Shown in pieces: positions 31,295 through 60,000 of a stretch of 60,000 bases of DNA. Position numbers and translations under genes: made by a program. Numbering within the stretch: the stretch's first letter is position 1; each line of letters begins with the position of its first letter. This DNA is from Bolinopsis microptera (lineage: Eukaryota > Ctenophora > Tentaculata > Lobata > Bolinopsidae): assembly GCF_026151205.1 (NCBI RefSeq), contig NC_087077.1, positions 10,843,983 through 10,903,982 on the forward strand, written 5' to 3'. The notes beneath the pieces are model-generated. The model was given only the letters and a program-made list of their open reading frames with translations, did not search any database and was not told the DNA's origin.

Positions 31295-32932
31295 ATGTTG
31301 AGACCATCTAGATTCTCCTCGTCACAACTGCTAGTCTGTGTGTTCTTGGCTATGGTATCTCTGCTCATGCTCGTTACTAACTTTGCTATGAAACGTGGAA
31401 TTACAGAAGGAACTACGCTCACAAGCCATATACAAATTGTAAAAAGGGTGAATAATTCTCTTGGAGCAACAAAAAAAGCAAGCCCTTTAAACGAAGGTGC
31501 CAAAACCCATAAAGGTGATTATGTGCTCCATAATCAAAGACTAAGATTATGGTATGGAGGTAGGTGTATCGATTCTAAAGACGGAAAACAGCTGAGTGTA
31601 CAGTTCTGTGATCCAAATATAGAGCAGGCTTTCAGTTTAACGACAGATAACCGTCTGATCTACGAGAAGACTGGAGGATGTGTGAGCTACGAAACAAAAG
31701 AAACAGCTGTATTTTTGAATCTTGTTGATTGCTCGCATGTCACAGGATCGTTCTTTACACAGGACGAAAATGGACAGTTTTACCTACAGCACGTTGTGGA
31801 AAATAAAGAGCTGTGTATCACACCAATATCCAAGATAAATTCCAATGTAACAAAAATTCCTTGTCTGTATGATCCTATTGGACTGACCGTTTGTGATAAG
31901 GAAGCCTCAAGAATATTGCCGATGGAGGAACAATTTTTCCAAAACGACAGAAAATTGATGAAGGGAGCTGTTATAGCTCAAAATAGCTCATGTGACTTCA
32001 GAGCTTGTGGGCTTAACAAGAGGGAACCTGTAAACCTTCTCCCACTTCACCAGATGAGCAGATGCACAAAACTTTGGGAATGTGTTACAGTTGCAGTAAA
32101 AACAGCAAGAAGGCCACACCTAGTAGTTCGTCTGGCTCAATCAGTGAGAGACAGTTTGGGGTTCGACATTCGGATTGTTGCATACGACGATGGACCTAAT
32201 GATTATTCTGAAGAAATTCTTCAACAAATGGCAGAGTATCCTTTATTGCGTTACATAGTGAGCAGCGACGAAGATCTTGGTATTTCACAAGGAAGAAATC
32301 TTGCTATTTTGCAGGTCAAAACAAAATATTTTTTCCTTGCAGATGACGATATCAAGTTCAATAGAGACACAAAACTCGATAAATTAGTCGCAATACTGGA
32401 CACCACTGACGCCACAGTTGCTTCAGCCACGTACAGTGGGAGTACCCACTTTACTGGGTACTTCCAATTTGGGTATTTTAACTCTAAGTCAAAACCAAAA
32501 CTTGGCTTTTACCATCAAGCTTGCACTTTTGTCAATCAAACAATTCCGGACCACCCAGATTGTGTGAGATGTGAAATAAGTTCCAACGTATTTTTGGCTC
32601 GAACGAAGGAGGTATTGGATATAGGGGGCTGGGATCCTGAGCTCATGACAAGAGAACACAAGGATATATTTATTAGACTCAAAGCAGCCGGAATGAAAGT
32701 TGTACTGTGTCCTGATGTGAAAGTGACACATGCACGTCCAGGGAAAAAAGCAGTAAAAGGAGTAGGATATAGTGAAAAGAGAAGGCGTGGTAGTGCAAGG
32801 TCGAGCTTGCTCGAAGCTAACAGATGGAACATTCACGGCATATTCGAGAAATTTGCAAAGGGCACGTTAAGCCTAAGCAGCACTTCCGGAGAGATAGAAT
32901 TTAAGGAAGTTAAAGCACGAGAATTTTGTTAG
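31295..32932 (+). CDS. Type II membrane glycosyltransferase, B4GALNT-like, with ricin-B domain
   Basis: A single intronless frame of 545 residues. Residues 11-30 (QLLVCVFLAMVSLLMLV) form a signal anchor, so the enzyme should sit in the Golgi with its C-terminus in the lumen. Residues about 75-205 look like a ricin-B (beta-trefoil) lectin domain: YGGRCIDSKDGKQLSVQFC then GGCVSYETKE, and later NKELCITP. Residues about 265-500 form a GT-A fold close to beta-1,4-N-acetylgalactosaminyltransferases (GT12/GT2). ISQGRNLAI precedes the metal-binding DDD in YFFLADDDIKF (near residue 350). Further on are SSNVFLARTKEVLDIGGWDP and REHKDIFIRLK. It probably transfers a hexosamine to a glycan; acceptor and donor are unknown. 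The order, lectin N-terminal to the transferase, is the reverse of the GALNT family. Confidence 0.78.
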   Translation: MLRPSRFSSSQLLVCVFLAMVSLLMLVTNFAMKRGITEGTTLTSHIQIVKRVNNSLGATKKASPLNEGAKTHKGDYVLHNQRLRLWYGGRCIDSKDGKQLSVQFCDPNIEQAFSLTTDNRLIYEKTGGCVSYETKETAVFLNLVDCSHVTGSFFTQDENGQFYLQHVVENKELCITPISKINSNVTKIPCLYDPIGLTVCDKEASRILPMEEQFFQNDRKLMKGAVIAQNSSCDFRACGLNKREPVNLLPLHQMSRCTKLWECVTVAVKTARRPHLVVRLAQSVRDSLGFDIRIVAYDDGPNDYSEEILQQMAEYPLLRYIVSSDEDLGISQGRNLAILQVKTKYFFLADDDIKFNRDTKLDKLVAILDTTDATVASATYSGSTHFTGYFQFGYFNSKSKPKLGFYHQACTFVNQTIPDHPDCVRCEISSNVFLARTKEVLDIGGWDPELMTREHKDIFIRLKAAGMKVVLCPDVKVTHARPGKKAVKGVGYSEKRRRGSARSSLLEANRWNIHGIFEKFAKGTLSLSSTSGEIEFKEVKAREFC

Positions 32933-34954: not shown

Positions 34955-37040
34955 ATGGTACACGATAGATCTCTACGGAATGCTCGTCCTCACAAGGCTC
35001 CACCCAACGATCCGAATAACAGCCTCTATGACTCACCTCAATCTAGAGTTTCCCTCTTCAAGGAGCAACTGAAGAGTAACACCGAATCTCCTACTGTCAT
35101 ACCAGAAAGCCCCATTGATGTTACTGGAGACAAATTCTTTGATGCAGAGTGCCTTGTCCCCAAAACCCCATCAAACCAGGGTACTCCTAGTGCAAGTGCC
35201 AAGAGCACACCTTCTCAAAACAAGAGAACTCCTACCCAAAACAAAAAGAAGTGTCCATGCAAGAAGAGTGACAAAAACTCAACCTACATCACCTGCAACA
35301 AGTGTCAACAGCAATGGCATAATAGGTGCAGTAATCTACTCGGCCTTTCACCATCAGATATTAAGAAAATGGAACTGTGGGAGTGCCCAAGCTGTTATGT
35401 CTGTCCCGCACTTAGTAAGGTACCTTCATCCCTCTACGCTGACATCCGTTCAACTAAGGAGGTTGTCACCGCATTATGTCTTAGTGAACGCTCTTCAAAC
35501 CAGGGGTTGGTTAATGATGATGTCACAGAGAAACTGAACATGCTACAGCAAGAGATAAAAGGCCTCCGTGAGTCTGCCTTCCAGAGAGTTGACCAGCCAC
35601 ACCCAGAGAGCACGACCCTGTTGACAGCTGAAGCTGTCACTAGCATCCAAAACAGCCTATTACACCTGACTGAACAAGTCACATCCATGAAGTCGTCGCT
35701 TGGCAACAGAAGCAGCAGCAGCCCTCGGCCTCCACCAAACAGGATGCCACAGCCTAACCATGGTCCTGGTCCCACATCCCCTCCCCTACCTAATACTGTC
35801 TCTCCACACACAAAGAAACATGTGACACCGTGCAAGCCCTATGGAATGTATGACCCTCTAGCCCTTACACCAGAACTTAAGGAGGAAGTCCAAGCGTTCA
35901 TCAGTGGTAATACTCCAGTGGTAATATATATATAACTGTAGCGAATTTACTAGTGTTGGTGAGAACTCTCGTGAAGTAATGTACTTTGGTGACTTCTCGT
36001 ATAGGTACACTGGCACTGAGCACCCAGCAAGAGAAATGCCGCACGTGCTGAAGAAGCTTATTGACACAATTGTTCCTAAAATACCTTCTCCAGTGAATGA
36101 TAGGAATATCAAGATTAACTCGTGTCTCATTAGTAAGTATAGCTCTGGTACTAACCACATTCCAATGCACAGAGATGATGAGCCTGTGATTGATCCCGAA
36201 TCTCACATCCTTACGATCTCACTAGGAGCTGCCCGTACCATGTCCTTCTGCAATAATGATGACAGCCAATCAGAAGATCTCCCCCTTCAGGACAACAGCT
36301 TGTTAGTCACAACGAGATATGCGCAGGACTTTTGGAAACACGGGATCCTCCCAGACGAGAATGTCTCCACAGAGAGAGTGAGCCTGACCTTTAGACACAT
36401 TTCTCCTCACTTCATCAATTCGACCATCATTCTGGGTGATTCAAACACCTCCAGGATGACATTTGGTGACTCAGTAGGTACCTTTGGTCGTTGGGTCCCT
36501 GGGAAGCGTGTTTTGGTAGGTCACATGGAGGCTCTCCCTGATGCAATTGAGATTGGCCCTTACCGTAATATTGTCATCCATACTGGAATCAACAGTATTA
36601 ACTCCCGGTCTCATCCACGATCAGAAGCCTACCTCCTCCATGTCCTCGAATCCAAGTGCAGAGACATTACTGAAACCTACCCCAAATCCAAAATCCACTT
36701 GTCAATGTTACTTCCAACTAGACTAAACTCTCTAAATAGAAAAGTTGAAAGCTTTAATCGGGGCATCCTCGATGTGTCTTATCAGCAAAGAAACATTTTT
36801 ATTATTGATAACTCTATTTTTGGTCGCCAGCTCTCTGATGAGTATGGCAGATGGGATATTGCTGCAAATGGCCCTCTTACCTCAGATATTGTCCACCTTG
36901 GTAAAAGTGGTATCCGTAAATTTGCTGCGAATATTAAGGAATCTGTAGCTGGCAGAAGGAGTAGCCAGTCTAGAGCACGTTTTAACACCAGTCAGGGGAA
37001 CTTCGGCGGAGCGGTAGAGGGTGGTAGGCGCCCACCATAA
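34955..37040 (+). pseudogene. LINE copy A ORF1: PHD finger, AlkB-like dioxygenase, SGNH esterase (one frameshift)
   Basis: Part one (34955-35935) has a serine/threonine/proline-rich start, then a PHD finger: CPCKKSDKNSTYITCNKCQQ, HNRC and CPSC. A coiled segment and a proline-rich linker follow. Part two reads in the next frame from about 35923. It starts the AlkB domain (EFTSVGENSREVMYFGDFSY) and contains the whole 2-oxoglutarate/Fe(II) core: HRD (36168-36176), H in FWKHGI (36339-36341) and RVSLTFR (36375-36395). SLGAARTMSF lies between. The C-terminal third is an SGNH hydrolase with IILGDSN, HTGIN and DIVHLGKSG. The frame break falls in a (TA)n run, consistent with a lost TA pair. It was probably one protein of about 695 residues. 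Confidence 0.88.
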
Positions 37041-37042
37041 TT

Positions 37043-40000
37043 ATGATGATCAAACAACCACAAATTACTAAGAATGTTTGCAAGGGATGCAATAAATTTA
37101 TCTCAACACACCACAAAATTTTAAACTGTAGCTCCTGTGGAACAGTTACTCACTCTAAATGTGCCAAAAATCTCTTCCAATACAGCCACACCAATGATAG
37201 CTGGCAATGCTACATCTGCATCGCCAGCTTACCACAACGGTACTGCCCATTTGCTTCTGCACTTATACGTGACAAACATGACCCAGTCCACCTTGATGAA
37301 ATTGAAGATGTTTCTGAAATCAATGAAATCCATAAAAGCTGTAAAAATTATGATCATAAAAGCTTTAAGAACCTCATAAAGCTGTATCATAGAAATGGGC
37401 AGAACCTTACTGGTATTTTTAACAATATTGATGGAAATGCTGCAAATTTTGATACATTTGTCACAGAAATCTCACAGTACAGTCATCCACTCTCGTTTAT
37501 TGGCTTGGCTGAGACAAATATTGATGCAAACCTCAAAGACTTGTATAGGATACCCGGTTATCTCTCTGAATACACCAATAAATTACGTGACAAATCTAAA
37601 GGTAGTGGAGTGGGAATTTACATCAATGAGTCACTTACTTACACCCGTATTGACAAACTATGTATGTGTACCCCTAACCTTGAATCTGTGTTTGTCTCCA
37701 TAACAAATGTTGGCAGGCCCCAAACAGTTGGCGTCCTATACAGACCACCTGGTGGATCTGACAAAGATGCCCTACACGAATTTGAGAGCCTTCTTAATCA
37801 GGTTCCTGATAGGAACGTTATCCTGCTTGGAGATTTCAACTTTAATCTATTTAATAAAGGCTCTGCCAGCTTTGAAAACATTTTATATGGAAATAACTTC
37901 ATCCCGCTTATATCACTGGCAACGCACCATAAACCAGGCTGTGTCCCATCGCTTATTGACAATATTCTGACAAACTCCACTGACAATATTGTGTCAGCTG
38001 GACTACTGGATACCAGGGTTTCGCATCACTCTCCAATTTTCTGTATTCTCGAATGTAGCATGCCTGAAGAACCAGAACTTGACCCTTGTAAACCAAAATA
38101 CGACTACTGTGAATCTAATATGACCAAGTTCTTAGAAGATATTCAAACAAATTTTTGTGGGCAGGTGTGCTACAACGTAGAAAACTTTGAAATTTTTGCA
38201 AATAAGATAAAACTTTTGATCGAAGAAAACTTTTTAATTGAATCTGAATCGTTCAAAAAGTCAAAAAGAAATATGATTGCAAACCCTTGGATCACACCAG
38301 GGATCATTGCATCAGTGAAAAAGAAAGAATATCTTTACAAGCAGTGGAAGAGTACAATTAAGGAACCCAACCCTCTTGGAGACTCTGATCTATACTTAAC
38401 CTATAGTAAATTCCGTCGACAGTTAAAATACATTATCAGATCTGCCAAGAAATTGTACTATTGCAGAAAATTCTCAAAAGTCTCAGGTAATATGAAGCAA
38501 ACATGGGCACTGATCAATGAACTGAGGGGAAAAACAAAAACTGGAATAAAGGCCTCGTTCAAAATAGATGGTAGTTTAGTAAAAGACAAGCGTGTCATAT
38601 CGAATGGCTTTAACATGTTCTTCTCTTCCATTGCAGGTAAACTTAATGCGAAGCTCTGCTCCTCCAAACCAATAAGTCGTGACACAGCTTGCCAGAGGCC
38701 CCTTAATTATAAGAACTACTTTAACAAAAGAGTTACCAACAGTATGTTCTTAAACCCCTGTGATACTGAGGAAATCGAAAAAATTGTTAAAACCTTCCAG
38801 GGTGACAAGGCTAGTGACATATCAATAGCTGTTCTTAAGAAATGTTGCACTACAATCTCTAAGCACCTAGCTGGTTTCCTAAACTCATTCATGAAGCTGG
38901 GTCTATTTCCAAATATTCTCAAAATAGGTAAGGTCACCCCCGTATTTAAGAAAGGAGACCCACAGCTGTTTGATAACTACAGGCCTATATCCATTCTACC
39001 TATCTTTGGTAAGATATTTGAAAAAGTAATTTACTGCCGACTATATAGCTTCTTTACTTCACATATGGTCATATACGATAAACAGTTTGGATTCAGATCC
39101 AACCACTCAACGGCACATGCCATCAATTACTCCATTGACCACATTCTTAAAAACCTAGAAAGTAAGAATCATGTAATTGGCATATTCATTGACTTAAGCA
39201 AAGCGTTTGACACAATCGACCACAGAAAATTACTTGTCAAACTTGAACACTATGGCATAAGAGGGCCCTGTCTTGACCTAATTGAAAGCTATTTGTGTAA
39301 CCGACAGCAGTATGTTGATTTCCAAAATACACACTCTGATCACTGCAAAATTGAATATGGGGTACCACAGGGATCAGTTCTAGGCCCTCTCCTCTTCTTA
39401 CTCTACATTAATGACATTACCAACTCTAGCAAACTTGGACACTTCATACTGTTTGCAGATGACACGAACATATTTGTTGCTGGAAAAACTGAACAAGAAG
39501 CCTATTTGAATGCTAATAAAGTACTTGAATCTGTAAATGACTATATGGAATCTAACTTGCTGCACATTAACCAAAGCAAATCGGTCTACATGTTATTCAG
39601 ACCTGGCCGGTACTCGTCCTGTGCACGTGCTCGTGAATATGGCTCTGAGAACTCACTCACGTTATCAGGCAACACGCTTACACGAGTAGATAAAGTGAGA
39701 TTCCTTGGTGTTATCATAGACCATGAACTATCCTGGGAACCCCAACTAGATAACATAAAAAGTAAACTAACTACAAGTATAGCTATAATTAAACGTATTA
39801 TGAAGTTTATTCCAGAAACAGAGTACCATAAGCTGTATGACTCCTTATTCAAGTCTCATATGAGCTACTGTATCAGTAGCTGGGGTGGTGTCACACCTTA
39901 TAGACTATCTAAACTGTTCTCCATCCAAAAAAGATGTGTACGCCTTCTATTTGGAAGCAAACCAAGCTTTGACCGGGCAGAGTATTATGAAACATGTGCA

Positions 40001-40489
40001 CGTGCAAGACCATACAGTGAACACATCGCAAAAAGGAGCTTTGCTTTGGAAAACACTAAGCCAATATTCAATACCGAGAAAATCATGTCAATCCACAACC
40101 TGTACACCCAACATATATCCACTGAACTGTTTAAAATCTTGAAACTGCATCAACCTATCTCTCTGACAAGTTTATTCGAAACAAGTTCCAGAGCATGTAG
40201 CCAAACTATGCGGGTCCCCCGACACAAACTTGAAATTTCTAAACACAATTTTGTCTTCAAAGGTACGACTATATGGAACAGTTTGGTTGATAAAATGTTC
40301 GACAAATGCACTCCTAATGAAAACAATGTCATGGTCCCTGGCTCTAGTAAATTTTCCGACTTTTCCTCCCCCATCTCAATTATCAAGAGCCGTATCAAAA
40401 AGCTCTTACTTGAAACCCAGCAATTGACAACACCTGGGCGTGAAATTGAGTGGCTCCCCCTAAATAGCTGGGGCATTGAACCAGCTTAG
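37043..40489 (+). CDS. LINE copy A ORF2: PHD finger, endonuclease, reverse transcriptase (intact)
   Basis: An uninterrupted 1148-residue frame starting ATGATG two bases after the ORF1 stop. Residues about 11-58 form a C4HC3 zinc finger (CKGCNK, CSSC, HSKC and CYIC). An APE-type endonuclease follows: FNNIDGN, GLAETNID, GVLYRPP, LLGDFNFN (near 262), SLIDNILT and the catalytic SHHSP. The RT has the blocks NYRPISILPIFGKIFEK, FGFRSNHST, FIDLSKAFDTIDH, GVPQGSVLGPLLFLLYIND and FADDTNIF (near 803). The C-terminal part ends in the KSRIKKLLLE region. All catalytic motifs are present. It would make the cDNA and nick the target for the element. CR1/L2 clade is inferred from the motifs and the ORF1 domains. 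Confidence 0.93.
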   Translation: MMIKQPQITKNVCKGCNKFISTHHKILNCSSCGTVTHSKCAKNLFQYSHTNDSWQCYICIASLPQRYCPFASALIRDKHDPVHLDEIEDVSEINEIHKSCKNYDHKSFKNLIKLYHRNGQNLTGIFNNIDGNAANFDTFVTEISQYSHPLSFIGLAETNIDANLKDLYRIPGYLSEYTNKLRDKSKGSGVGIYINESLTYTRIDKLCMCTPNLESVFVSITNVGRPQTVGVLYRPPGGSDKDALHEFESLLNQVPDRNVILLGDFNFNLFNKGSASFENILYGNNFIPLISLATHHKPGCVPSLIDNILTNSTDNIVSAGLLDTRVSHHSPIFCILECSMPEEPELDPCKPKYDYCESNMTKFLEDIQTNFCGQVCYNVENFEIFANKIKLLIEENFLIESESFKKSKRNMIANPWITPGIIASVKKKEYLYKQWKSTIKEPNPLGDSDLYLTYSKFRRQLKYIIRSAKKLYYCRKFSKVSGNMKQTWALINELRGKTKTGIKASFKIDGSLVKDKRVISNGFNMFFSSIAGKLNAKLCSSKPISRDTACQRPLNYKNYFNKRVTNSMFLNPCDTEEIEKIVKTFQGDKASDISIAVLKKCCTTISKHLAGFLNSFMKLGLFPNILKIGKVTPVFKKGDPQLFDNYRPISILPIFGKIFEKVIYCRLYSFFTSHMVIYDKQFGFRSNHSTAHAINYSIDHILKNLESKNHVIGIFIDLSKAFDTIDHRKLLVKLEHYGIRGPCLDLIESYLCNRQQYVDFQNTHSDHCKIEYGVPQGSVLGPLLFLLYINDITNSSKLGHFILFADDTNIFVAGKTEQEAYLNANKVLESVNDYMESNLLHINQSKSVYMLFRPGRYSSCARAREYGSENSLTLSGNTLTRVDKVRFLGVIIDHELSWEPQLDNIKSKLTTSIAIIKRIMKFIPETEYHKLYDSLFKSHMSYCISSWGGVTPYRLSKLFSIQKRCVRLLFGSKPSFDRAEYYETCARARPYSEHIAKRSFALENTKPIFNTEKIMSIHNLYTQHISTELFKILKLHQPISLTSLFETSSRACSQTMRVPRHKLEISKHNFVFKGTTIWNSLVDKMFDKCTPNENNVMVPGSSKFSDFSSPISIIKSRIKKLLLETQQLTTPGREIEWLPLNSWGIEPA

Positions 40490-41057
40490 TCAATCAGCAT
40501 CCCATCCCTTGCATACAACTAATTACAAAAGCGCTAATTATACCTGTTTCAAAAGCATCCTGTCTGGAAGTTCCCTGACTGCCGTGTGAATCTTTGGATC
40601 TATTTTTGGATCTATTTTTATATTGATATGATTTTTATATACCTATATATTCCTCGCATAATTTCCATGTCCACCTGAACAAACCTGGCACCATCAAATC
40701 TTACTCTAGAAACCCCAGAACTCATCAAGCCTAGTCTGAATGCAAAACTAGTTGACCAGCTACGTACAGTTTCCTGGACAACTGGAACCTTTTGGGCCAT
40801 GCACAAGCCAATAGCATGTATGGTCCTGCAGTGGGGTCTCCTTGTCCTTGGATCTGTGTTTTGATCCGTCTTTTCTTAAAATTTTCCATTTGTGTCACTT
40901 AGAATCACCTTTTAAAATGTTAATCGACACCACTGGTCCTAGTTAAATTTAGCCATGGCACAACTACTCGAACGTAACAGTTAAATAGGTGTGACATACT
41001 ATTATTCTTATAATTATATCATATGAATTGATTGCACTGCTAATAAATAAAATACTT

Positions 41058-41093
41058 TGTTTTACTAAAATACTTTGTTTTACTATTGTAATT
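41058..41093 (+). repeat. LINE copy A 3' terminal doublet
   Basis: AAATACTTTGTTTTACTA occurs twice in tandem as the last recognisable part of the element. Comparable doublets of different sequence mark other copies (45613, 48757, 48970). Confidence 0.75.
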
Positions 41094-42189: not shown

Positions 42190-42595
42190 AATATTTGTGT
42201 GTCCGCTGCTGCCAACCAAACTCGTTGAGCTAAATCGTAAAGTTGCACATTATAATGAATTAATTTTTAAGGAGCTGCTCCATTCCAACTTTGGTGTGAC
42301 TTTGGTACCTGGTTTTGACATGTTCTGTGATGAGGCTGGGCTCCTAAGCCAGCAATTCTCTAGGAACATTGGACGAAACCAGAGACCGGACTATTTACAC
42401 CTCAATTGGAGTGGTACAGCAAAACTGGGGGTTCTTATACGTAATACAATACTTTTAAGGATGAATGGAGGGACTGATAGAAGGAAGAAGAGATCGGATA
42501 AAGTTGACAATCGCTTATACTCCCAGACGATGGGTGGTTCCTCTCCTGCTCCTGCTGCGACTCAACATGGGGAAGGTTACGTACCGTACCCATGA
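42190..42595 (+). pseudogene. LINE copy B ORF1, C-terminal end of SGNH esterase
   Basis: The frame reads IFVCPLLPTKLVELNRKV then DYLHLNWSGTAKL, the catalytic D-x-x-H block of the SGNH esterase. It is clearly homologous to copy C (VFVCKLLPTKDLELNVKV; DTLHLNKLG). The element starts abruptly at about 42190 inside this domain, so copy B is 5'-truncated and has lost the PHD and AlkB parts. The ORF1 stop TGA overlaps the ORF2 start (ATGA at 42592-42595). Confidence 0.82.
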
Positions 42596-45500
42596 ATAAA
42601 TTGACCAAAGAGGTATGCCCTGTCTGTACAAAATTCATTTCCATTGGCCAATTCATTGCTGAATGTTGTAGGTGTGACTGTGCTATGCACCATAAATGCT
42701 ATACTAAATCCAGTACAAACAAAATATATGAAGATTTTTACTGCCCTAACTGTGTACACTTAGCAAGTACTCGTTACAATCCGTTTATATATGAAGATAC
42801 TGACTCTGAAAATAATAGTACTGACATTGATGAAACACTTGTAAACATCAACCGATTACTCAATAACTGTAACCCATATAGTGTTAAAGAATTTAATAAA
42901 ACATTTTGCAACCAAATGAACGAGTACTCATCATTATTATTTCAAAATATCGATGGTAATAAATCTAACTTTGATACTCTGGCAATAGAACTACAGAGAT
43001 ATATGAAATTTTCGATCATTGCTTTAGCAGAAACAAATGAAGGCCCCGAATTAAGTGACCTTTACCAACTGACTGGATACAATAGTTTCTACCAAAACAC
43101 TTTGCAAGATAAAAGAAAAGGCACTGGAGTCGCTCTTTATGTATGTGATACCCTCAGTGCTACAGTAAATGGCAATTTGTCCCATATATCTGAAAACCTA
43201 GAAACTCTATTTGTTACGATAAGCAGCAAGAATACTCCGGTCACTGTTGGTGTAGTGTATCGCCCTCCAAGTGGTGATGTAAATGTTGCATTATTAGAAC
43301 TCTCAGCAATTCTCGATAATTTGCCGAAATGCAGTTACCTGGCAGGTGATTTCAACATTGATCTACATAATAAGGATAATGCGATTGTAAAACGTTATGA
43401 GGAAGTCCTGTTCAGTAGAGGATTTTTTCCCCTAATATCTCTGCCAACTCATGAGAAGCCAGGTTGTAAAGTATCGTGTATTGACAATATTATAACTAAC
43501 GATGTAGAGAGTATAATAGCCTCAGGCACACTTACTGATCGTATATCCCACCACTCACCAGTCATTCAAATATTTGAAAAGAGTATGGGATCCACCAAGA
43601 GTAACCTAAAATATTAACAATATTACGACTACTGTAAGTCTAATGTTACCTCTTTTGTAAAGGACTTGGAACATGAATTAGAGAATAAAGTAATTGACAA
43701 CTTCACGGTATTTCATGATGTTTTCAAAAGTAGTATCGATAAAACGTGTAAGTTGGCAACCCCTAAGTCTTCCAAAAGAACTACACAAAATAACCCATGG
43801 ATCACACCTGGGCTTATAGCCAAAATCAAGCATCAGCACCAACTCTATGACAATTGGGCTAAAGTTAGAAAGAAAAAATGTAAACTCGGTGAAACTGATT
43901 ATAAAGGTGGAACATGTCAATGCTTGAAATGTTGTGAAAAACGTTCTAGATACAAAACTTATAAGGATTATAGAAGGATGGTTAAAAAATATCGCAAAGA
44001 TGTTCAAACTAAGTATTTCATGGGAAAATTTGCAGACACAAACGGTAATAGTAAGAAGACATGGGAACTGATTAATCAAATACGGGGCAAACAGAAACGG
44101 CAAATAAAACCACTGTTTACTATAAACAATGAGAAGATAACCAATCGTAGAGTAATAGCCAATGAATTTAATAAGTATTTTGTTTCTCTAGCGTCTAATT
44201 TAAACGGGGCATATAATGAAATTGGAGAACTAACTATTAACAATCTTCCTAGTTTTTATGACTACCTGCCTAGAGCAAACACGTCCAGTATTTTCATTAA
44301 TGACTGTACAGCTGACGAGGTTAGAATGATTATATCTGAACTGAAGAATGGGAAGTCATCCGACATCCCAATACATGTAGTTAAAGAATCGTCTAAAGTT
44401 ATCTGTCCTATACTATCTTTATTATACAGTGAATGCATGAGGAATGGAGTATTCCCAGATGATTTAAAGACTGGGAGAATCAGTCCGATCTATAAGAAGG
44501 ATAATGAGGAATTGCTGGAAAACTATAGGCCAGTATCAACTTTAGCTGTTTTTGGTAAGATATTTGAAAAAATTATTTACAACAGACTGTATAGCTTCTT
44601 TCAGTCCCAGAAAATGATTTACGAGAACCAGTACGGATTTAGAAAAAATCACTCCACAAGCCATGCCCTCAACTCCTCAGTGAATTACTATACATAGAAT
44701 CCTGTCTTAGCAAAAAACTGCATGTACTTGGAATATTTATTGATCTATCTAAAGCGTTTGACACGATCTCACATGAAAAACTACTTAATAAACTAGACAA
44801 CTATGGAATACGTGGAAACGCCAATAGACTCATCGCTAGTTATCTCTCTAATAGATATCAATATGTCTCTGTACTGGGCGAAGAGTCTGACAAGCTGCCT
44901 GTTCTCTTTGGAGTTCCCCAAGGCTCTTGTCTCGGACCCTTGCTATTTATAATATATGTTAACGACTTATTTAGAACAACTGATCTGGGCAAGTTCATAC
45001 TATTTGCAGATGACACAAACATATTCGTAGTAGATGAATGTAGAAAAAAACTGTATGAAAGAGCAAACGAAATTCTCCGTTTGTTACACCAGTACATGAA
45101 ATGCAATCTATTACATATAAATATAAAGAAATGCTGCTACATTCACTTCAATCCGTCACGTACAGCTACTGATAATTAGGCAGATAACGAATCAGAATAT
45201 ATACTAACTCTAAATAATACGGTAATAAAGCAAGTTAAAGAGACCAAGTTTTTAGGTGTTATTATTGACGAAAAGCTAAAATGGGATGTTCAAATAAGAG
45301 CCCTCAACTCGAAACTTAGGTGTGAGATCGGAAGACTCAGTAGAATACGACACGTTATCCCGAAAAAACACCATAAAGAATTGTACCACACGTTATTTGA
45401 GTCACACCTAAGATTTGGAATATCGGTATGGGGTGGGTCGAGTAACAATATGCTTCAACCTATCTTCATCACTCAGAAAAAATGTATCAGAATACTATTT

Positions 45501-45629
45501 GGTGACCTTGAAGCATATCTAGATAAATTTAGAACATGTGCCAGAACACGTTGTATAGATGAACAAATCCTAGGAAGGGAATTCTTTGAAAAAGAGCATA
45601 CAAAGCCGTTAATAAAACAAATATTTTAA
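42592..45629 (+). pseudogene. LINE copy B ORF2, first part (stops and a frameshift)
   Basis: It starts MNKLTKEVCPVCTKFI with the same C4HC3 finger (CPVC, CCRC, HHKC and CPNC). The endonuclease keeps GLAETN-like ALAETNEG, GVVYRPP, LAGDFNID and RISHHSP. A TAA interrupts the frame at 43615-43617. RT blocks NYRPVSTLAVFGKIFEK and GFRKNHSTSH follow. A frameshift lies at about 44690; then come FIDLSKAFDTI, GVPQGSCLGPLLFIIYVND and FADDTNIF, with a TAG at 45177-45179. At 45629 the sequence is cut by the minus-strand copy D; the C-terminus resumes at about 47212. The tyrosine- and cysteine-rich insert near 43905-43950 (CQCLKCCEK) is not in copy A. Confidence 0.88.
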
Positions 45630-45646: not shown

Positions 45647-47213
45647 TTTACGGCACAATCAAACAATATCAATAATAAATAAATCAGGGGAGGTTTGAAG
45701 AGGTTTCAAGTGCCGAAGGCCACTGCTTATCTTTAGGATTTGAGAGTGACCTGTGCTTGAAACCCCCTCAACCATCCACTACGTCAATATAAAACTTATT
45801 ATACAAATATAGAAAAATATAATTATCTAAGCTAAAATTGCTTATTGGTCTAGTTTGGTGACATAGGAGAGCCCAGTTGAGTTTTAGTTTAGGTTTATGT
45901 TTTAAATCATAGTTTGAAAGGTTAGCCATGTTTCATGGCAGAGAGAGATATCATGTGTGCAGAGCCGTACCGGATGTAGAATTTGAGATATAATATAGAT
46001 TAGTTACCATATATTAGGGTCACGCCGGTCACCTCGATTTTGGAGGGATAGCAAGTGCTTTTTAAGGTTAGATTTAATAATACCTGACGAAGCTGATAAG
46101 TCTGAATTTTTGGAAGAACCCGGGATTATTATCCCATCTTCATTAGCATCACATATTTCGAATACATAGGGGATGAGATCATTCCAAATTTTCGTAGAGG
46201 TGTACAAAAAGTTCTGTTGGGAGATATCTAATCTCAGTAATGGGACAATCAGACGAAGTTTTTCATTTCTAGGACAGAACTTGAAAAGATCTTTAATCGA
46301 CTGGGGGACATCAAATTTAAGAATTTTGAATAGTTCCATAAATGTATGGTACATGTGCAGATTCTCCAGGTTGATAATTTTCTGCTCAGTGAATAGCGGT
46401 TTAGTGTGTTCAAGACAGTAGTTCTTTTTAGCCATATGTTCGTTATAAGTTCTTGAACGTGCACAGGTTAAGTAGTATTCTTTATGATCAAAATTGGGAA
46501 TGTTACCAAATAGCAGTCGTATACATCGTTTTTGAATAGCAAAGATTTTATTCAGCTTATGTTTAGGGATCCCACCCCAGCAACTTATACAATAGCTAAG
46601 ATGTGACATAAAAAGAGCATTGTATAGTTTCAAATATTCAGATTTGGGAATGAATTTGCAAATTCTCTTAATCGATACAATACTGGAGTTCAGCTTTAAA
46701 GATAAATGATTAAGATGTGGTTCCCAACATAGCTGTTCGTCTATTATCACCCCAAGAAATTTTGTACATTGAACTTTTTCTAGCTTTTTGCCATCTATTG
46801 AAATCGTTAGATTCCTGTTAAAGGGCCGTGTTCTAGCACAGGTCTGTGTTGCTCTTGACAAACCTGGCTGAAAATGCATAAAACAACTTTTCCCTGCATT
46901 TATATGTAACTTGTTAGACTCCATATAGTTACTGACCTGTTTCATTACATGATTAGCTTTTTCAAAAGCTTCCTGTGCTGAACGACCTATCACAAAAATA
47001 TTTGTATCATCAGCAAACAGGACGAATTCAGCCAAACTTGAGGAGCTCACAATATCATTTATATAAATCAGAAATAGTAGAGGTCCTAACACTGACCCCT
47101 GGGGTACACCGTACTCAACTGAACACTTGTCCGATTTTTCAGTTTGAAAAGAAGTTACTTGGCTACGGTTTGTTAGATAGCTAGCAAGAGTTTTTAGTGC
47201 AACAAGAACGGCC
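45630..47213 (-). mobile_element. LINE copy D, 5'-truncated, inserted in copy B
   Basis: The insertion covers the RT and C-terminal coding sequence plus a 3' untranslated region of about 370 bp (45647-46003). Its 5' end breaks off inside the RT at about 47213. Copy B sequence continues on both sides (KPLIKQIF before, VHNLYKYTCLLELFKI after). No clean target duplication flanks it, so a few bases of copy B may have been deleted. Confidence 0.82.
46004..47213 (-). pseudogene. LINE copy D ORF2, C-terminal RT half
   Basis: An undamaged frame of about 400 codons reads YGVPQGSVLGPLLFLIYIND, then FADDTNIFVIG (catalytic box) and CTKFLGVIIDEQLCWEPHL. After that come YCISCWGGIPKHKLNKIF and a C-terminus homologous to copy A. 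It begins at about ALKTLASYLTNRSQ because the insertion is 5'-truncated; the residues before that are read from flanking DNA. It lacks endonuclease and the first RT blocks, so it cannot act alone. Confidence 0.86.
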
Positions 47214-51790: not shown

Positions 51791-54289
51791 TATAAGGCGC
51801 GGTCAGTTTTAATACTTTCAGCGCTGCTATATAACAAATAATTTGAGGTATGTGTAATGTTAAACGATAATGTCAAACGATAACTGAAACTGTTAAACGA
51901 TAACTGACGTTAAGTGACACGGCACAGACCCGAGAAGTCCTGCTTCTCCTTCCACTCTACACAAATCTATAAAGGGAGTCAGACCCAAAAGTCTGAACAT
52001 TTCCGGTTGGTGATTAAGTTTTTTTAGAAGATACAAACTCCTTTTTTCCTTCTGTGAATGTCTGGTAATAGTAGTATACCAAGAAGCCAGAGTGGGAGAG
52101 GAGGTTCCATGGATACACTCAGTCCTCACCCCAACAAGAGGAATAAAGCTAAGTCAGAAAGCGATACTAGCTCGCCCTTAATTAAGGTGAGCAGAGTAGC
52201 TGAAAGTGCTGCCAAGACGAAACACTGGGACCTTGATAAGTGCCCGTGTAACAGCTCGTCTGGCGGCAAAGTCTATCTGATCGACTGTTCGCGTTGTAAG
52301 CAGCAGTGGCATGTTGATTGTCTTAGTATGCGGGGGATCTCAAGGCAGGCCATCAACGCTATGGTTGACTACCTATGTCCCTTTTGCTACGTTGCCCCAG
52401 TAAGCACTGCCAGGAACAAGAGATCAGATACATGCTTCTCCTGCAGAAACACAGCAGTCTTACGACAGGCTAACAGTGAATTTGAAGCCTCAGCTGCTGC
52501 AGAGAATCTTAATAACATAGGCCTAATCTCAGCATCGCTTGCCTCGGTAGACAGTGAGAAACTCTGCGAGCAAATAGCCAGTCTCAACAGCAACATGGAA
52601 CGTCTTCAGACTTTTGATCTCCACCTGCAACATCTCCTGATTAAAGAAGACGGGTTGAAGTCCCATCAGGCTCAAATGAAAAAGTTAGAAGCAGCACTGT
52701 CCTCATCATCCAGCTCTGCCACAGACCCTCTAGCCAACAGCATCGATCAGCTGAACCAGCAACTTGCACAGCTTCAGTCGCATCAAACTGCAGCATCTGA
52801 AACACCTGCTTGCACTGCCACTCATGAGCTACTTGAGAGAGTCTCACAAGAACTGAGTGAGCATTCCACCCAACTTAACAACTTAAGCAGTCAAATACAG
52901 GATTCTAAAGCATCTCCTCAATCTAAAGCACCACCTGTAGCCCAGTACCCCTCTCCTCCAGTGCAGGCTCCTCTCCTCTCCTCTCCCCTACAACCTGAAC
53001 AACCTACCCCTCACTTACCACATGATCAGGTGCCAGTAACTGAAACCAGGCCAGATTTCATTCTGACTACTGAATCTGAGAAAATTATTGCCTTTCTTCA
53101 GTCATGTTCTTTCAAACAAGAGAACGGTCACTCCGTCACTTCATTTGGCACCCCCTACCACTACATGGGTTCTAAATCTTCAGAAAATGTGCCACCAATT
53201 CCTGAGGAACTCAAACCATTATTTGATGAAATGAACAAAGTACAAACTGAACTTTTTAACAAGAGCTACCCGGATCAGCCCCACCTGACGGCCCCGGTTA
53301 TCAATTCATGTCTCATCAACAAGTATGATGGCTCTGATAGTCACCTGCCTAACCATTCAGACCGTGAAGTGACCATCCATCCAGAATCATCAATACTTAC
53401 TTTCACCCCAGCGAACGCCGCGGGCTTCATGCGCCGCTAAAACGTTTAAATTTCATTTTTATAATTCTCCCAAGACTCCTGTTAAGACAAATTGCGAATG
53501 TTTAGCTTTAAAACTACTCTGTTCTTAAAACAATTGTTTTAATCATCGAATACTGAAGAGTTCAATTCAATCCAAGGTAAATTGTTCAAATTATGAGTGA
53601 TCATGAATGAAAAATAAATAATTTACACGTAAAATTTGCCTCAAAATTTGTCTTGAAAAATAACCATAACTCTGGCTATGATTTGAATTTTGAAAATTTA
53701 AAATGCTAGTGCCGCGCACAAAAATCTTCCGCGCATTTAAAACGTGTCGATAATGCGCCCAAACCAATGTCGCGTTGGATAATAGTATCCAAGCTGGTTG
53801 AATTCACAATTTTCATTTCTTGTTCCAGTTTGTAGCTTAGCTTTGTGTGGCAGCCATATTGGTTTTATGCGTGCGCATATATTGCGCGCTATCTATATAT
53901 CTTACCGTTAAATGTACGTTTACAGATTTAATCGAGATCTCTGCGAGGCTTTCATAATTATGTATGATATAGCTTGATATGCTGTTACTTCAAATTGCTG
54001 TAATTTCTATTTATATTGACTGAAGTAGAGTACAAAATAAAATTATTTGCTCTCTAATTTTAAGGATGTCGACCTGCAACTGAAATTGAGTGATATTCGA
54101 CTATTTCAATTTAGATTCGCTAGTCAACAAAATGATTGCTCACTCCGAAATAACGACTTTCAAGGAATGGTATGTACCCTACTATTTACAACAAGGCTCC
54201 CAGCATTATAGTAAAACATAGACAATAGACAATATTTTAATATAAACTATAATTAATTTTTTACCGGGAACATTCAGCAGTTAACTTTG

Positions 54290-56946
54290 TCGTATTTTAA
54301 AACAAGTAACTCGGGCCCAGTTCGTAGAGAAGATGGATTTGCTGTATTTTAAAACAAGTAACTCGGGCCCAGTTCGTAGAGAAGATGGATTTGCTGTATT
54401 TTAAAACAAGTAACTCGGGCCCAGTTCGTAGAGAAGATGGATTTGCTGTATTTTAAAACAAGTAACTCGGGCCCAGTTCGTAGAGAAGATGGATTTGCTG
54501 TATTTTAAAACAAGTAACTCTGGCCCAGTTCGTAGAGAAGATGGATTTGCTGTATTTTAAAACAAGTAACTCGGGCCCAGTTCGTAGAGAAGATGGATTT
54601 GCTGTATTTTAAAACAAGTAACTCGGGCCCAGTTCGTAGAGAAGATGGATTTGCTGTATTTTAAAACAAGTAACTCGGGCCCAGTTCGTAGAGGAGATGG
54701 ATTTGCTGTATTTTAAAACAAGTAACTCGGGCCCAGTTCGTAGAGGAGATGGATTTGCTGTATTTTAAAACAAGTAACTCGGGCCCAGTTCGTAGAGAAG
54801 ATGGATTTGCTGTATTTTAAAACAAGTAACTCGGGCCCAGTTCGTAGAGAAGATGGATTTGCTGTATTTTAAAACAAGTAACTCGGGCCCAGTTCGTAGA
54901 GAAGATGGATTTGCTGTATTTTAAAACAAGTAACTCGGGCCCAGTTCGTAGAGAAGATGGATTTGCTGTATTTTAAAACAAGTAACTCGGGCCCAGTTCG
55001 TAGAGAAGATGGATTTGCTGTATTTTAAAACAAGTAACTCGGGCCCAGTTCGTAGAGAAGATGGATTTGCTGTATTTTAAAACAAGTAACTCGGGCCCAG
55101 TTCGTAGAGAAGATGGATTTGCTGTATTTTAAAACAAGTAACTCGGGCCCAGTTCGTAGAGAAGATGGATTTGCTGTATTTTAAAACAAGTAACTCGGGC
55201 CCAGTTCGTAGAGGAGATGGATTTGCTGTATTTTAAAACAAGTAACTCGGGCCCAGTTCGTAGAGAAGATGGATTTGCTGTATTTTAAAACAAGTAACAC
55301 GGGCCCAGTTCGTAGAGAAGATGGATTTGCTGTATTTTAAAACAAGTAACTCGGGCCCAGTTCGTAGAGAAGATGGATTTGCTGTATTTTAAAACAAGTA
55401 ACACGGGCCCAGTTCGTAGAGAAGATGGATTTGCTGTATTTTAAAACAAGTAACTCGGGCCCAGTTCGTAGAGAAGATGGATTTGCTGTATTTTAAAACA
55501 AGTAACTCGGGCCCAGTTCGTAGAGAAGATGGATTTGCTGTATTTTAAAACAAGTAACTCGGGCCCAGTTCGTAGAGAAGATGGATTTGCTGTATTTTAA
55601 AACAAGTAACTCGGGCCCAGTTCGTAGAGAAGATGGATTTGCTGTATTTTAAAACAAGTAACTCGGGCCCAGTTCGTAGAGAAGATGGATTTGCTGTATT
55701 TTAAAACAAGTAACTCGGGCCCAGTTCGTAGAGAAGATGGATTTGCTGTATTTTAAAACAAGTAACTCGGGCCCAGTTCGTAGAGGAGATGGATTTGCTG
55801 TATTTTAAAACAAGTAACTCGGGCCCAGTTCGTAGAGGAGATGGATTTGCTGTATTTTAAAACAAGTAACTCGGGCCCAGTTCGTAGAGAAGATGGATTT
55901 GCTGTATTTTAAAACAAGTAACTCGGGCCCAGTTCGTAGAGAAGATGGATTTGCTGTATTTTAAAACAAGTAACTCGGGCCCAGTTCGTAGAGAAGATGG
56001 ATTTGCTGTATCTTAAAACAAGTAACTCGGGCCCAGTTCGTAGAGAAGATGGATTTGCTGTATTTTAAAACAAGTAACTCGGGCCCAGTTCGTAGAGAAG
56101 ATGGATTTGCTGTATTTTAAAACAAGTAACTCGGGCCCAGTTCGTAGAGAAGATGGATTTGCTGTATTTTAAAACAAGTAACTCGGGCCCAGTTCGTAGA
56201 GGAGATGGATTTGCTGTATTTTAAAACAAGTAACTCGGGCCCAGTTCGTAGAGGAGATGGATTTGCTGTATTTTAAAACAAGTTACTCGGGCCCAGTTCG
56301 TAGAGAAGATGGATTTGCTGTATTTTAAAACAAGTAACTCGGGCACAGTTCGTAGAGAAGATGGATTTGCTGTATTTTAAAACAAGTAACTCGGGCCCAG
56401 TTCGTAGAGAAGATGGATTTGCTGTATTTTAAAACAAGTAACTCGGGCCCAGTTCGTAGAGAAGATGGATTTGCTGTATTTTAAAACAAGTAACTCGGGC
56501 CCAGTTCGTAGAGAAGATGGATTTGCTGTATTTTAAAACAAGTAACTCGGGCCCAGTTCGTAGAGAAGATGGATTTGCTGTATTTTAAAACAAGTAACTC
56601 GGGCCCAGTTCGTAGAGAAGATGGATTTGCTGTATTTTAAAACAAGTAACTCGGGCCCAGTTCGTAGAGAAGATGGATTTGCTGTATTTTAAAACAAGTA
56701 ACTCGGGCCCAGTTCGTAGAGAAGATGGATTTGCTGTATTTTAAAACAAGTAACTCGGGCCCAGTTCGTAGAGAAGATGGATTTGCTGTATTTTAAAACA
56801 AGTAACTCGGGCCCAGTTCGTAGAGAAGATGGATTTGCTGTATTTTAAAACAAGTAACTCGGGCCCAGTTCGTAGAGAAGATGGATTTGCTGTATTTTAA
56901 AACAAGTAACTCGGGCCCAGTTCGTAGAGAAGATAGATTTGCTGTA
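54290..56946. repeat. 52-bp satellite array, about 51 copies
   Basis: The unit starts CTGTATTTTAAAACAAGTAA, continues with CTCGGGCCCAGTTCGTAGAG and ends AAGATGGATTTG. Copies are almost identical. The commonest variant (GAGGAGATGG for GAGAAGATGG) appears near 54692, 54744, 55212, 55784, 55836, 56200 and 56252. Its paired occurrence suggests local block duplications. The period is not a multiple of three and no long ORF results. Confidence 0.95.
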
Positions 56947-58181
56947 GTTGTCAGTTTACGGACAAATAAAGTCGAAAAGCATTAATCAGAATATGGTTTA
57001 GGCTGTCCCAAAATTTCGGATTCTTTTTCTGGAGTTTGAAATTGGCGGGAATTTTTAAACTCTCGTTGTGGTACCAAACCAATATTTTCAGCGCAGAGTT
57101 TTAGCGCGCGCCAAGAGCACACACGTATTTTTGCATTGTAGCCGCGCGTTATTTGCACGTGCACTTCTACAGATTAAAATTAGGAGAGGGCCCTTACTGC
57201 TTACATTACTAAGTTGTTATGTAGTAATATTGTGAATTTGTCCGAAACTGGAAACAAATCTTGTAAAATTTTACGAATAGAAGTTATAATATTACTTGAA
57301 GTTGACTGTAAAAATTTACTGAGTTTCACTTCCATATTTCAGGATCCGACCGCTGATATTAAAATTGAAGAGTTGGATTTCATTGGAACATGGAATTACT
57401 GTAATGGAAAATAAAACAGGTCTTGCTGAGGATGAAGAAATGTTATGTGGGGAGAAAATGGGCTACTGGAAGTGGACCTTCTTAAACAAAGACGACTTTC
57501 ACAAAATGTTTAAAAGATCACGGTCGCGGCATCGAACCTTGGACGCTTCCCCTGCCACTGTCAGACACTCTAGAATAGTACTAGTAGTGTGCGCTACTCG
57601 AGCTGTTGATATATGAGTTCTTCGGTGTTATTTATATAATTGTAATATGTAATGACTGACAGTGCGAGATATCTTTTTTTGTTTCTATTTGATGTGTTTA
57701 GTGTTTGTGTTGCATTCTAATATAAACCGCGTATTAGTTTCGTGTCAATTTTAAATTTTATAAGTTTATCTTTAAACTGTATTTATTAGCAGTAATAGTT
57801 ACATTTTGGTATTTACCTATATTTATTATTGTAATACTGTTGTATAATGCTGTTTCTTCCTCATTGTAGCTTACATATAGGATAGCATACTTTGCTATGA
57901 TCTTTAATCACAGTTGACAATACTTGATTAGAGTTAATGATTGTACGCGTTTGAAATCTTGATTTGATATCATTATAACCTTTACTAATGTTCAGATGAA
58001 TGAATTTGATGTTTTATTTTTCCTCTGCACTATTGAAAATCCTTTAAGGGATAGAATCGGCACTGTCAAATATCTTTAAAAGGTTCGTAAACGGAATTAC
58101 AGTCGATCTCCTGACAAATTTATGCCGAAAATTTGTTTTAACACGCGCAGCAATATGAAGCCCGCGGCATTCGCCGGGGTG
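56947..58181. other. Right arm of the inserted transposon
   Basis: Unique, mostly AT-rich sequence from the satellite to the right terminus. An acceptor-like CCATATTTCAG lies at 57333-57343, before a short open frame (57344-57616), but no homology was recognised. Confidence 0.4.
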
Positions 58182-59053
58182 ACTTTGTCTCTCGGCCAGA
58201 TCTGCAAAATCAAGTTCACTGAATGTGACTCTAGAACTGAATCCTCTCTTGAATGTCATGATCGCTCCCTGTACATAATGAGCCGTAGATCACAAGAAGT
58301 TTACAGTCATATGATTGAGCGTGGCTCAATATCAGATGGTATTAGGTACTCGCTGACCTTTCGTGCTGTTAGCTGGACAAATAAAAATTGCACAAGCTTA
58401 CATGGTGATTCAAACACAGGCTTCTTGCGTTTTGGGTCTGACAAGAGGGGTACCTTTGGCGAACTCATGCCAGGTCAAAAGTTCTGGGCTCCCAGAATTG
58501 AAGATATCAACCCTGTGTCCTGCATGGGTTACGCCAATGTGGTGCTCCACTGTGGGATCAATGACGTGAGACAGCCGGATATTAGTTGTGAGAATGATGT
58601 TGCTGATTGTTATAATAAACTCAAGCTGAAAATTAAACAAATTAAGAATCTTAGCCCCAGCACTAGAGCTGTTTTTGTTTGTAAACTGCTGCCTACTAAG
58701 GACTTAGAGCTGAATGTAAAAGTTAATGTATTTAATAGACTTATTCATTTCGACCTGCTCCCTACATGTAAGGATGTCGTATGTGTTAACGGTTTCGAAC
58801 AGTTTGCCAGCAACTATGGTCTTGCGGACGAACTGTCGAAACAATTCGACAGACATGGTCGACTTGATACACTTCATCTTAACAAGTTAGGGGCAAGAGT
58901 CCTTGCTGGACTCATTAAACAATCTGTATTTATTAGGTTAAATGGCGGAGAAGACAGAAGAAAACACATCGGCAAAGTCAATGGACGGCTATACAGCAAC
59001 GTGGCTAGTGGCCCGCCTGCACTGCAGCGGAGGGGACGGAACGGTTAACAGGT

Positions 59054-60000
59054 ATGGTTAATCGTGTTCAAAAGGAAATTTGTAGTCACTGTCTGAAGAA
59101 TATTGGATTAGGGCTTCCCCACTTTGAATGTTTTAACTGCAATAGTATTCTCCATGCCAAATGTTTTAATCCTTCCAAAGCGCAAGTTATCAATGACAAC
59201 TTTTACTGCAACGAGTGTAAACATTCCATATCTAAAAAATATAATCCTTTTAAAGTAATGACCGATCCTGAAGTTAATGACTGTGACCCATGTATCCAAA
59301 AGATGTCCGATGCTTTGGAAAACTGTAGATCCTATACAATTAAGGACTTTAACACACATATCAAACCGTGTTTTGCAAGCAACCTGCCCACGATTTTCCA
59401 GAACATAGATGGTAATAAAACAAATTTTGATGCCTTTAGCATGGAACTAAACCGATTAGCCGAAAAATTTAAAATTATTGGACTTGCTGAAACCAATATT
59501 GGAATAGAGGAAAGCACTGTCTACCATCTAGAGGGGTACAATTGTTTCTATCAGGACAAACATATCAACAAAGCAAAGGGAAGTGGAGTAGCATTGTACT
59601 TAAAGGACGAACTTAACGGAGTTGTAAACGAAGAATTATCATGGGTAACCAAAAATCTTGAAACCCTATTTATTACTATTCAACATGATGAACCTGTACA
59701 TGTAGGAGTACTGTACCGTCCTCCTAGTGGGGACTCCTCAGAGGCACTAAATGAACTTAGAAAACAGTAAACTTGTTCAAGACTTTGAAAACCTTATTCT
59801 AGGTCTAGGTTTATCACCACTTATTTCTACTTCCACGCATCATAAACCAGGATGTAACGAATCATGCATTGACAACATACTCACCAACAACATAGAGAAC
59901 TCTATCTGCTCTGGAACAATTAGTACCTGCATCAGTCACCACCATGCTGTATTTAACATATTCAACTCACCCCTAGTCAGTACTGAGGTTCATGAACAAA
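59054..60000 (+). pseudogene. LINE copy C ORF2, N-terminal part with internal deletion
   Basis: It starts MVNRVQKEICSHCLKNIG five bases after the ORF1 stop. The zinc finger is complete (CSHC, CFNC, HAKC and CNEC). Endonuclease blocks FQNIDGNKTNFD, GLAETNIG and GVLYRPPSGD follow. At about 59768 the frame meets TAA. In the next frame the protein continues NSKLVQDFENLILGLGL and CIDNILTNN, but the segment that should hold the catalytic GDFN motif (about 30 residues) is missing. This copy is therefore endonuclease-defective. It runs off the window just after the SHHH block. Confidence 0.87.

Follow-up and report, generated by a model that had tools for sequence, protein, structure and literature searches.

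An AlkB-type dioxygenase domain in the ORF1 proteins of LINE retrotransposons of the ctenophore Bolinopsis microptera

Introduction

Among the components of long interspersed nuclear elements (LINEs), the proteins coded by the first open reading frame (ORF1) are the least understood. The question of what they may do for the element is raised by a 60 kb stretch of the Bolinopsis microptera genome (contig NC_087077.1, positions 10,843,983 to 10,903,982; GC content 0.389), hereafter the window. It contains a LINE with both ORF1 and ORF2 (copy A, 34955–40489), in whose ORF1 an initial annotation had recognized the motifs of an AlkB-type dioxygenase. We therefore ask whether this is a genuine AlkB domain, whether the element and its relatives retain it, where it came from, and what it might act upon.

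Results

Identity of the ORF1 domain

The second ORF1 frame of copy A (35934–37037) matches the 2OG-FeII_Oxy_2 profile PF13532 with an E-value of 6.7e-21 and a score of 75.8 bits, where the cut-off is 31.2, and human ALKBH2 with an E-value of 4.4e-10, bearing out the proposed AlkB domain. Its limits were taken from residues 288–473 of the predicted structure of P0001, an intact ORF1 of 683 amino acids (aa) that is 91% identical across the searched region. Of the span originally given, 35900..36410, the end holds (36407), while the start has to be moved upstream to about 35825. Comparison of the structure model with known folds predicts an AlkB-type double-stranded β-helix, so that the refutation foreseen in the initial annotation, a structure lacking this fold, did not occur. 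The closest structures are those of ALKBH2 and ALKBH3, with FTO and E. coli AlkB ranking lower and ALKBH5 lower still. By its score over the curated cut-off, the double-stranded β-helix, the HxD...H triad and the R...R arginines, the domain belongs to the AlkB family; within it ALKBH2/3 is nearest by score, in trees that held only the ALKBH2/3 subfamilies and in which the mobile versions nest in neither.

The codons of the predicted iron ligands in copy A start at 36168 (His), 36174 (Asp) and 36339 (His), and those of the other predicted active-site residues at 36138 (Tyr), 36180 (Glu, two residues past the Asp), 36375 (Arg) and 36393 (Arg). The roles of these residues follow from AlkB structures, in which the Asn of the N-x-Y motif contacts 2-oxoglutarate (2OG). 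This last position is a Ser in copy A (codon 36132) and an Asn in copy C, another remnant in the window. Thus, the earlier view that every iron and 2OG ligand is kept stands for His, Asp, His, Tyr and both Arg, and fails for the N-x-Y Asn of copy A; likewise, the spacing given as N-x4-Y-x2-G is actually N-x6-Y-x2-G.

The domain lies between a PHD-like zinc finger and an SGNH/GDSL hydrolase, as originally described (Table 1). An ORF2 with endonuclease (EN) and reverse transcriptase (RT) domains adjoins this ORF1, which makes the element a LINE; the PHD/C1-like finger of ORF2 scores under the Pfam cut-offs. The ORF1 is of type IV (esterase type), with the SGNH fold and its sequence blocks and with long helices in the predicted model. 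By this ORF1 type, we take the element to be probably CR1/L2-like (Jockey superfamily). The ORF1 of copy A changes frame inside the AlkB domain, within an AT run at about 35921–35933. Because near-identical ORF1s of the same family with open frames exist elsewhere in the genome (L031, L047, L048 and L049), we regard this frameshift as damage private to copy A.

Table 1. Coordinates of the features described in the text (window positions, except for the Helitron).
Feature	Position	Strand	Evidence or remarks
Copy A ORF1, first frame: PHD-like zinc finger, coiled coil, linker, AlkB start	34955..35935	+	ORF1 profile E 1e-43
Copy A PHD-like zinc finger	about 35252-35395	+	Pfam PHD E 0.0022, under its cut-off
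Copy A AlkB-type 2OG/Fe(II) dioxygenase domain	35825..36407	+	PF13532 E 6.7e-21; limits from P0001 model; ligands
Copy A ORF1, second frame: remaining AlkB and SGNH esterase	35934..37040	+	ORF1 profile E 2.3e-195
Copy A SGNH/GDSL hydrolase domain	36408..36974	+	Catalytic Ser codon 36441; later N, D, H blocks retained
Copy A ORF2, 1148 aa, intact frame: PHD/C1-like finger, endonuclease, reverse transcriptase	37043..40489	+	RVT_1 E 6.9e-39, Exo_endo_phos 2.2e-7
Candidate 3' tail: 18-bp unit twice, head-to-tail (AAAATACTTTGTTTTACT)	41049..41084	+	Read off sequence
Copy B: ORF1 esterase end and broken ORF2, AlkB part missing	42191..45614	+	ORF1 profile
Copy C ORF1, first part: PHD-like finger, coil, first half of AlkB with HSD ligands	52058..53404	+	
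Copy C second half of AlkB (SLGQ, distal H, RYSLTFR) and SGNH domain	58179..59048	+	PF13532 E 0.0098; ORF1 profiles
Copy C ORF2 start, frame broken after 59770, leaves window	59054..60000	+	
AlkB Helitron, three pieces open in one frame	C10:16874800-16884000 (L060 3-2999, L062, L061 2-4000)		

Conservation among protein relatives

A protein search with the AlkB and esterase region of the copy A ORF1 recovered 136 matches. Among the 120 listed, 119 carry a precomputed PF13532 assignment, the sole exception (P0099) being a gene model that lacks the N-terminal half; at least four of the 120 come from Mnemiopsis leidyi. A profile built from seven distant sequences gave 25 matches, all with PF13532, from the 7995 candidates sharing most words with it that were scored. 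Searching with the AlkB domain alone returned three matches from six candidates, too few words being shared. Scans of the IMG/VR viral contigs found no relative. The matches to the profile include a distant 511-aa protein combining AlkB and SGNH domains (P0140), which lies on a 1.9 kb contig and suggests that this pairing is older or wider.

Across 140 proteins the ligand positions are kept nearly throughout (His 135, Asp 139, His 136, Arg 136, Arg 136, Tyr 138, Glu 136). Aside from one clade taken up below, the exceptions are gaps in truncated sequences and, at the two Arg, four isolated substitutions. In a set of 26 sequences with at most 60% mutual identity (mean 47%), the six ligand columns average a conservation of 0.974 versus 0.599 over columns (permutation p 1.4e-4), with the N-x-Y Asn column, which lies outside the six, at 0.462. 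These diverged relatives bear out the earlier suggestion that the ligand residues are under selection; in the family alignment, the H, D, H and R positions do not vary freely. Further, distances in the AlkB and SGNH domains are correlated (r 0.868, 133 of 141 sequences used) and, therefore, both domains have travelled as one unit.

Genomic copies and selection

In the 264,652,675-base assembly (232 contigs), a search with the AlkB–SGNH piece found 112 matching places, copy A among them, from 897 candidates with 111 scored. This figure is incomplete and does not give the number of copies, copy C being absent from the list and split elements being counted twice. The places fall into identity bands of about 94–100%, 43–53% and 30–37%. 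We examined 20 genomic stretches picked for long frames: all 20 elements have an ORF1 (577–865 aa) with AlkB and the GDSN esterase motif, with the AlkB motifs in frame. An ORF2 frame of 1108–1259 aa is present in 16 of them, one of which, L043, is chimeric, and in 18 of the 20 ORF1 and ORF2 either overlap by 4 nt or lie 2–5 nt apart. In L043, an L059-type sequence is nested in frame within the ORF2 of an L042-type element. The H, D, E, H, R and R residues are retained in every one of the 20, and the Tyr in 18.

The ratio of nonsynonymous to synonymous substitution rates (dN/dS) is 0.10–0.16 for the AlkB domain, 0.05–0.12 for the SGNH domain and 0.15–0.52 for the N-terminal part, the last computed without four pairs involving L037, whose frame begins upstream in another reading. 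These values come from the 15 of 190 pairs that were usable, the other 175 falling outside the dS range used, and amount to three independent comparisons: within the family in the 44% identity band, L042–L043, and L038/L039–L044; the family of copy A itself is too uniform for such estimates. The AlkB domain is thus under purifying selection.

AlkB domains in other mobile elements of the genome

A genome scan with PF13532 gave 151 matches, host genes among them (587 candidates, 150 scored). In four further LINE families, represented by L055, L056, L057 and L059, the ORF1 scores over the cut-off for PF13532 and under it for a GDSL-type domain, and an EN–RT ORF2 comes next. L058 shares their AlkB and GDSL-type ORF1 plan, with its ORF2 split.

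The domain also occurs in a Helitron, where a single 3388-aa frame on contig C10 combines AlkB with Helitron_like_N (E 4.1e-23) and a PIF1 helicase (E 3.1e-22). This AlkB retains H-K-D-D-E, the distal H, R-x5-R and N-x-Y. At five places, AlkB and Helitron matches lie in frames of equal stated length (3388, 3321, 3366, 2459 and 3226 aa); a further four places have the two kinds of match no more than about 5 kb apart. Other long Helitron frames (for example C10:5710577, C6:8448547, C2:4702040 and C4:4806475) have no AlkB among the matches listed, which counts against AlkB as a general Helitron trait; these frames are 28–48% identical to the Helitron query piece.

Origin of the domain

The host genome codes for an ALKBH2 (L051) and two ALKBH3-like proteins (L052 and L053). 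In trees limited to these three, human ALKBH2 and ALKBH3, and a set of mobile versions that left out P0140, the 31 mobile sequences are separated by one branch from the five cellular proteins with support of 95/85; for the 30 without L059 the support is 100/97. L059 is placed closest to the host side on a long branch, and the Helitron version, also on a long branch, falls weakly among the LINE sequences (86/56). Since the mobile versions stand apart from the host and human ALKBH2/3, the trees give no sign that the domain was taken from these genes within the ctenophore lineage. Capture from host ALKBH2/3 after their split from the human genes was considered and is unsupported, the mobile versions nesting in neither group. 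In an RT tree, weak at its base owing to very long outgroup branches, L059 again stands apart from the other AlkB-bearing LINEs, as in the AlkB tree; the L043 RT, being the L059-type nested insert, was excluded. By these phylogenies, an old capture of AlkB, with perhaps a second one for L059, may account for the distribution.

Other copies and neighbors in the window

AlkB is visible in two of the three ORF1 remnants of the window, namely copies A and C. The second half of the copy C domain scores 16.6 bits on its own, below the PF13532 cut-off. The domain is interrupted there by an insert of about 4.78 kb (53402–58183) that has terminal inverted repeats (CACCCCRGCGAAYGCCGCGGGCTTCAT); the 5-bp sequence ACTTT may be its target duplication. 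This insert is a DNA transposon of unplaced type. An ORF2 fragment beside copy B (46040–47197, minus strand) is probably a recent insertion: over 152 columns, its RT shows 100% identity with that of L033 from the 44% family. The window further contains an IS1595/ISXO2-like transposase domain (E 3.7e-12) followed in one frame by a long QPPAP-repeat tail (2315–3631, minus strand), a distant LINE-type RT fragment that is not near the AlkB-bearing LINEs (15959–16720, minus strand), and a glycosyltransferase family 2 protein coded in a single frame, which also weakly matches a ricin-type lectin (31295–32932, plus strand).

Discussion

What the AlkB domain may do for the element

The reading that we favor, as a reasonably probable one, is that copy A represents a LINE, CR1/L2-like by its ORF1 plan, whose AlkB domain is an active nucleic-acid dealkylase acting on the element's own nucleic acid or on insertion-site DNA. 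We infer the catalytic activity, the nucleic-acid substrate and the action in cis from the domain's affinities and setting. The ORF1 protein (ORF1p) combines a PHD-like finger, a coiled coil through which it would self-associate, an ALKBH2/3-like Fe(II)/2OG dioxygenase and an SGNH esterase, and might thereby keep the AlkB domain on the element's own ribonucleoprotein. There, it would oxidize N-methyl groups off element RNA, cDNA or insertion-site DNA, potentially removing marks or lesions that would otherwise stall copying or be recognized by host defenses. Members of the ALKBH2/3 family act on substrates of the N1-methyladenine and N3-methylcytosine class, lesions that stop polymerases, and the likeness of the mobile domain to this family suggests substrates of the same class.

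Several observations weigh against this reading. The searches with AlkB-containing queries favor AlkB-bearing sequences and cannot show how many related LINEs lack the domain, and the AlphaFold model contains neither metal nor cofactor. The N-x-Y position is T in 75, S in 32 and N in 25 of the 140 proteins, the Asn being present in C-type and Helitron copies, and the Tyr is replaced by Phe (Y72F) in two of the 20 genomic elements, L042 and L043. In one clade (P0112, P0113 and P0115), the H, H, R and E positions have changed together with the frame still open; by sequence, it is apparently a natural pseudo-enzyme lineage, and its members retain the SGNH Ser motif. Finally, the presence of AlkB in a Helitron means that the domain cannot be fully explained by protection of a reverse-transcription template, and moves weight from clearing an RNA template towards clearing DNA or any element transcript.

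That same distribution, spanning several LINE families and a Helitron within one genome, speaks for counter-defense, whereby AlkB would erase a host regulatory methyl mark, such as N6-methyladenosine (m6A), N6-methyladenine in DNA (6mA) or N1-methyladenosine (m1A), that silences mobile-element RNA or DNA, serving evasion and not repair or copying. RNA and DNA elements have mRNA and DNA in common, not an RT template, and a comparable role in relation to m6A has been proposed for an AlkB-bearing orchid Gypsy element (PMC9289625). However, no such host mark is known here, and the nearest structures, ALKBH2/3, are of the repair type, with FTO, E. coli AlkB and ALKBH5 ranking below them; we hold this account to be rather unlikely. 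For ctenophore DNA, 5-methylcytosine and 5-hydroxymethylcytosine have been reported (PMC8141815). More broadly, AlkB dioxygenases could, as a tentative and somewhat doubtful proposal, be a shared tool of selfish DNA in this genome, carried by several LINE families and one Helitron family, and selected wherever this was measurable, under host methylation or alkylation pressure on mobile elements; they would then form a new class of transposon-encoded anti-silencing enzymes of animals.

We consider it improbable that the domain is retained mainly as a non-catalytic nucleic-acid-binding module in place of the RNA recognition motif missing from this ORF1p, even though esterase-type ORF1ps are described as having no defined RNA-binding domain (PMC3905857) and the three proteins of the pseudo-enzyme clade lost ligands while keeping the frame: the ligand columns rank with the best conserved, a constraint that a purely binding role would not call for. 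More improbable still is a protein demethylase or hydroxylase, for instance of histone tails, targeted by the PHD-like finger. A PHD-like Cys/His pattern does occur in 58 of the 66 relatives of at least 640 aa, but sequence and fold are closest to ALKBH2/3, and the ORF1s of L055–L059 have no PHD match at E 0.01. Chance resemblance or an assembly artefact has a negligible probability, and we reject it given PF13532 in 119 of the 120 listed clusters, in-frame AlkB motifs in 20 of 20 elements and dN/dS well below 1.

From a second, well-conserved enzyme domain in ORF1 follows a direct prediction, open to assay, of what these elements need to do to nucleic acid. Further, AlkB in both RNA-copying and rolling-circle DNA elements of a single genome renders a host methyl mark, or alkylation stress acting on transposons, a testable matter in early-branching animals.

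Comparison with known systems

Capture of AlkB by selfish elements is already known from an orchid (Phalaenopsis) Ty3/Gypsy retrotransposon, which is the only transposon-borne AlkB recognized in the open-access literature as far as its searched portion goes; Repbase, subscription papers, preprints and AlkB in Helitrons lay outside that search. No record of AlkB as a LINE ORF1 component was found there, in line with the initial annotation, and the available text of the 2014 survey of Jockey-superfamily ORF1s makes no mention of a dioxygenase, oxygenase or 2OG (PMC4120745). AlkB in LINEs is thus probably unreported. The orchid domain demethylates m6A in vitro and, like the one described here, was captured by a retrotransposon, but it sits in an additional ORF of a long terminal repeat element of a plant host and is described as recent (PMC9289625); the present domain is fused to an esterase in LINE ORF1s, occurs in many families and is ALKBH2/3-like.

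As in the type IV ORF1p of CR1/L2 elements, such as ZfL2-1, a coiled coil and an SGNH esterase precede an EN–RT ORF2 (PMC3905857, PMC4120745). In 2013, esterase ORF1ps were presented as unique among ORF1ps in having an enzymatic function (PMC3905857); the 2014 survey, in its available text, places the esterase type in two vertebrate groups only (PMC4120745), and a 2017 paper also lists RTEX with this type (PMC5408684). The ZfL2-1 esterase is not among the 50 structures listed for our SGNH domain, which has no bearing on kinship. Unlike the known esterase ORF1ps, the versions reported here have a second enzyme domain fused in and a non-vertebrate host.

Human ALKBH2 and ALKBH3 and their host orthologues share the fold and ligands, and differ in being cellular genes. 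The AlkBs of plant RNA viruses, to which fold matches were found in a viral library, likewise belong to selfish elements and sit in virus polyproteins. The DNA methyltransferases captured by retrotransposons of dinoflagellates and charophytes are similarly nucleic-acid-modifying enzymes taken up by mobile elements (PMC5890265), but they add a mark, whereas an AlkB would remove one.
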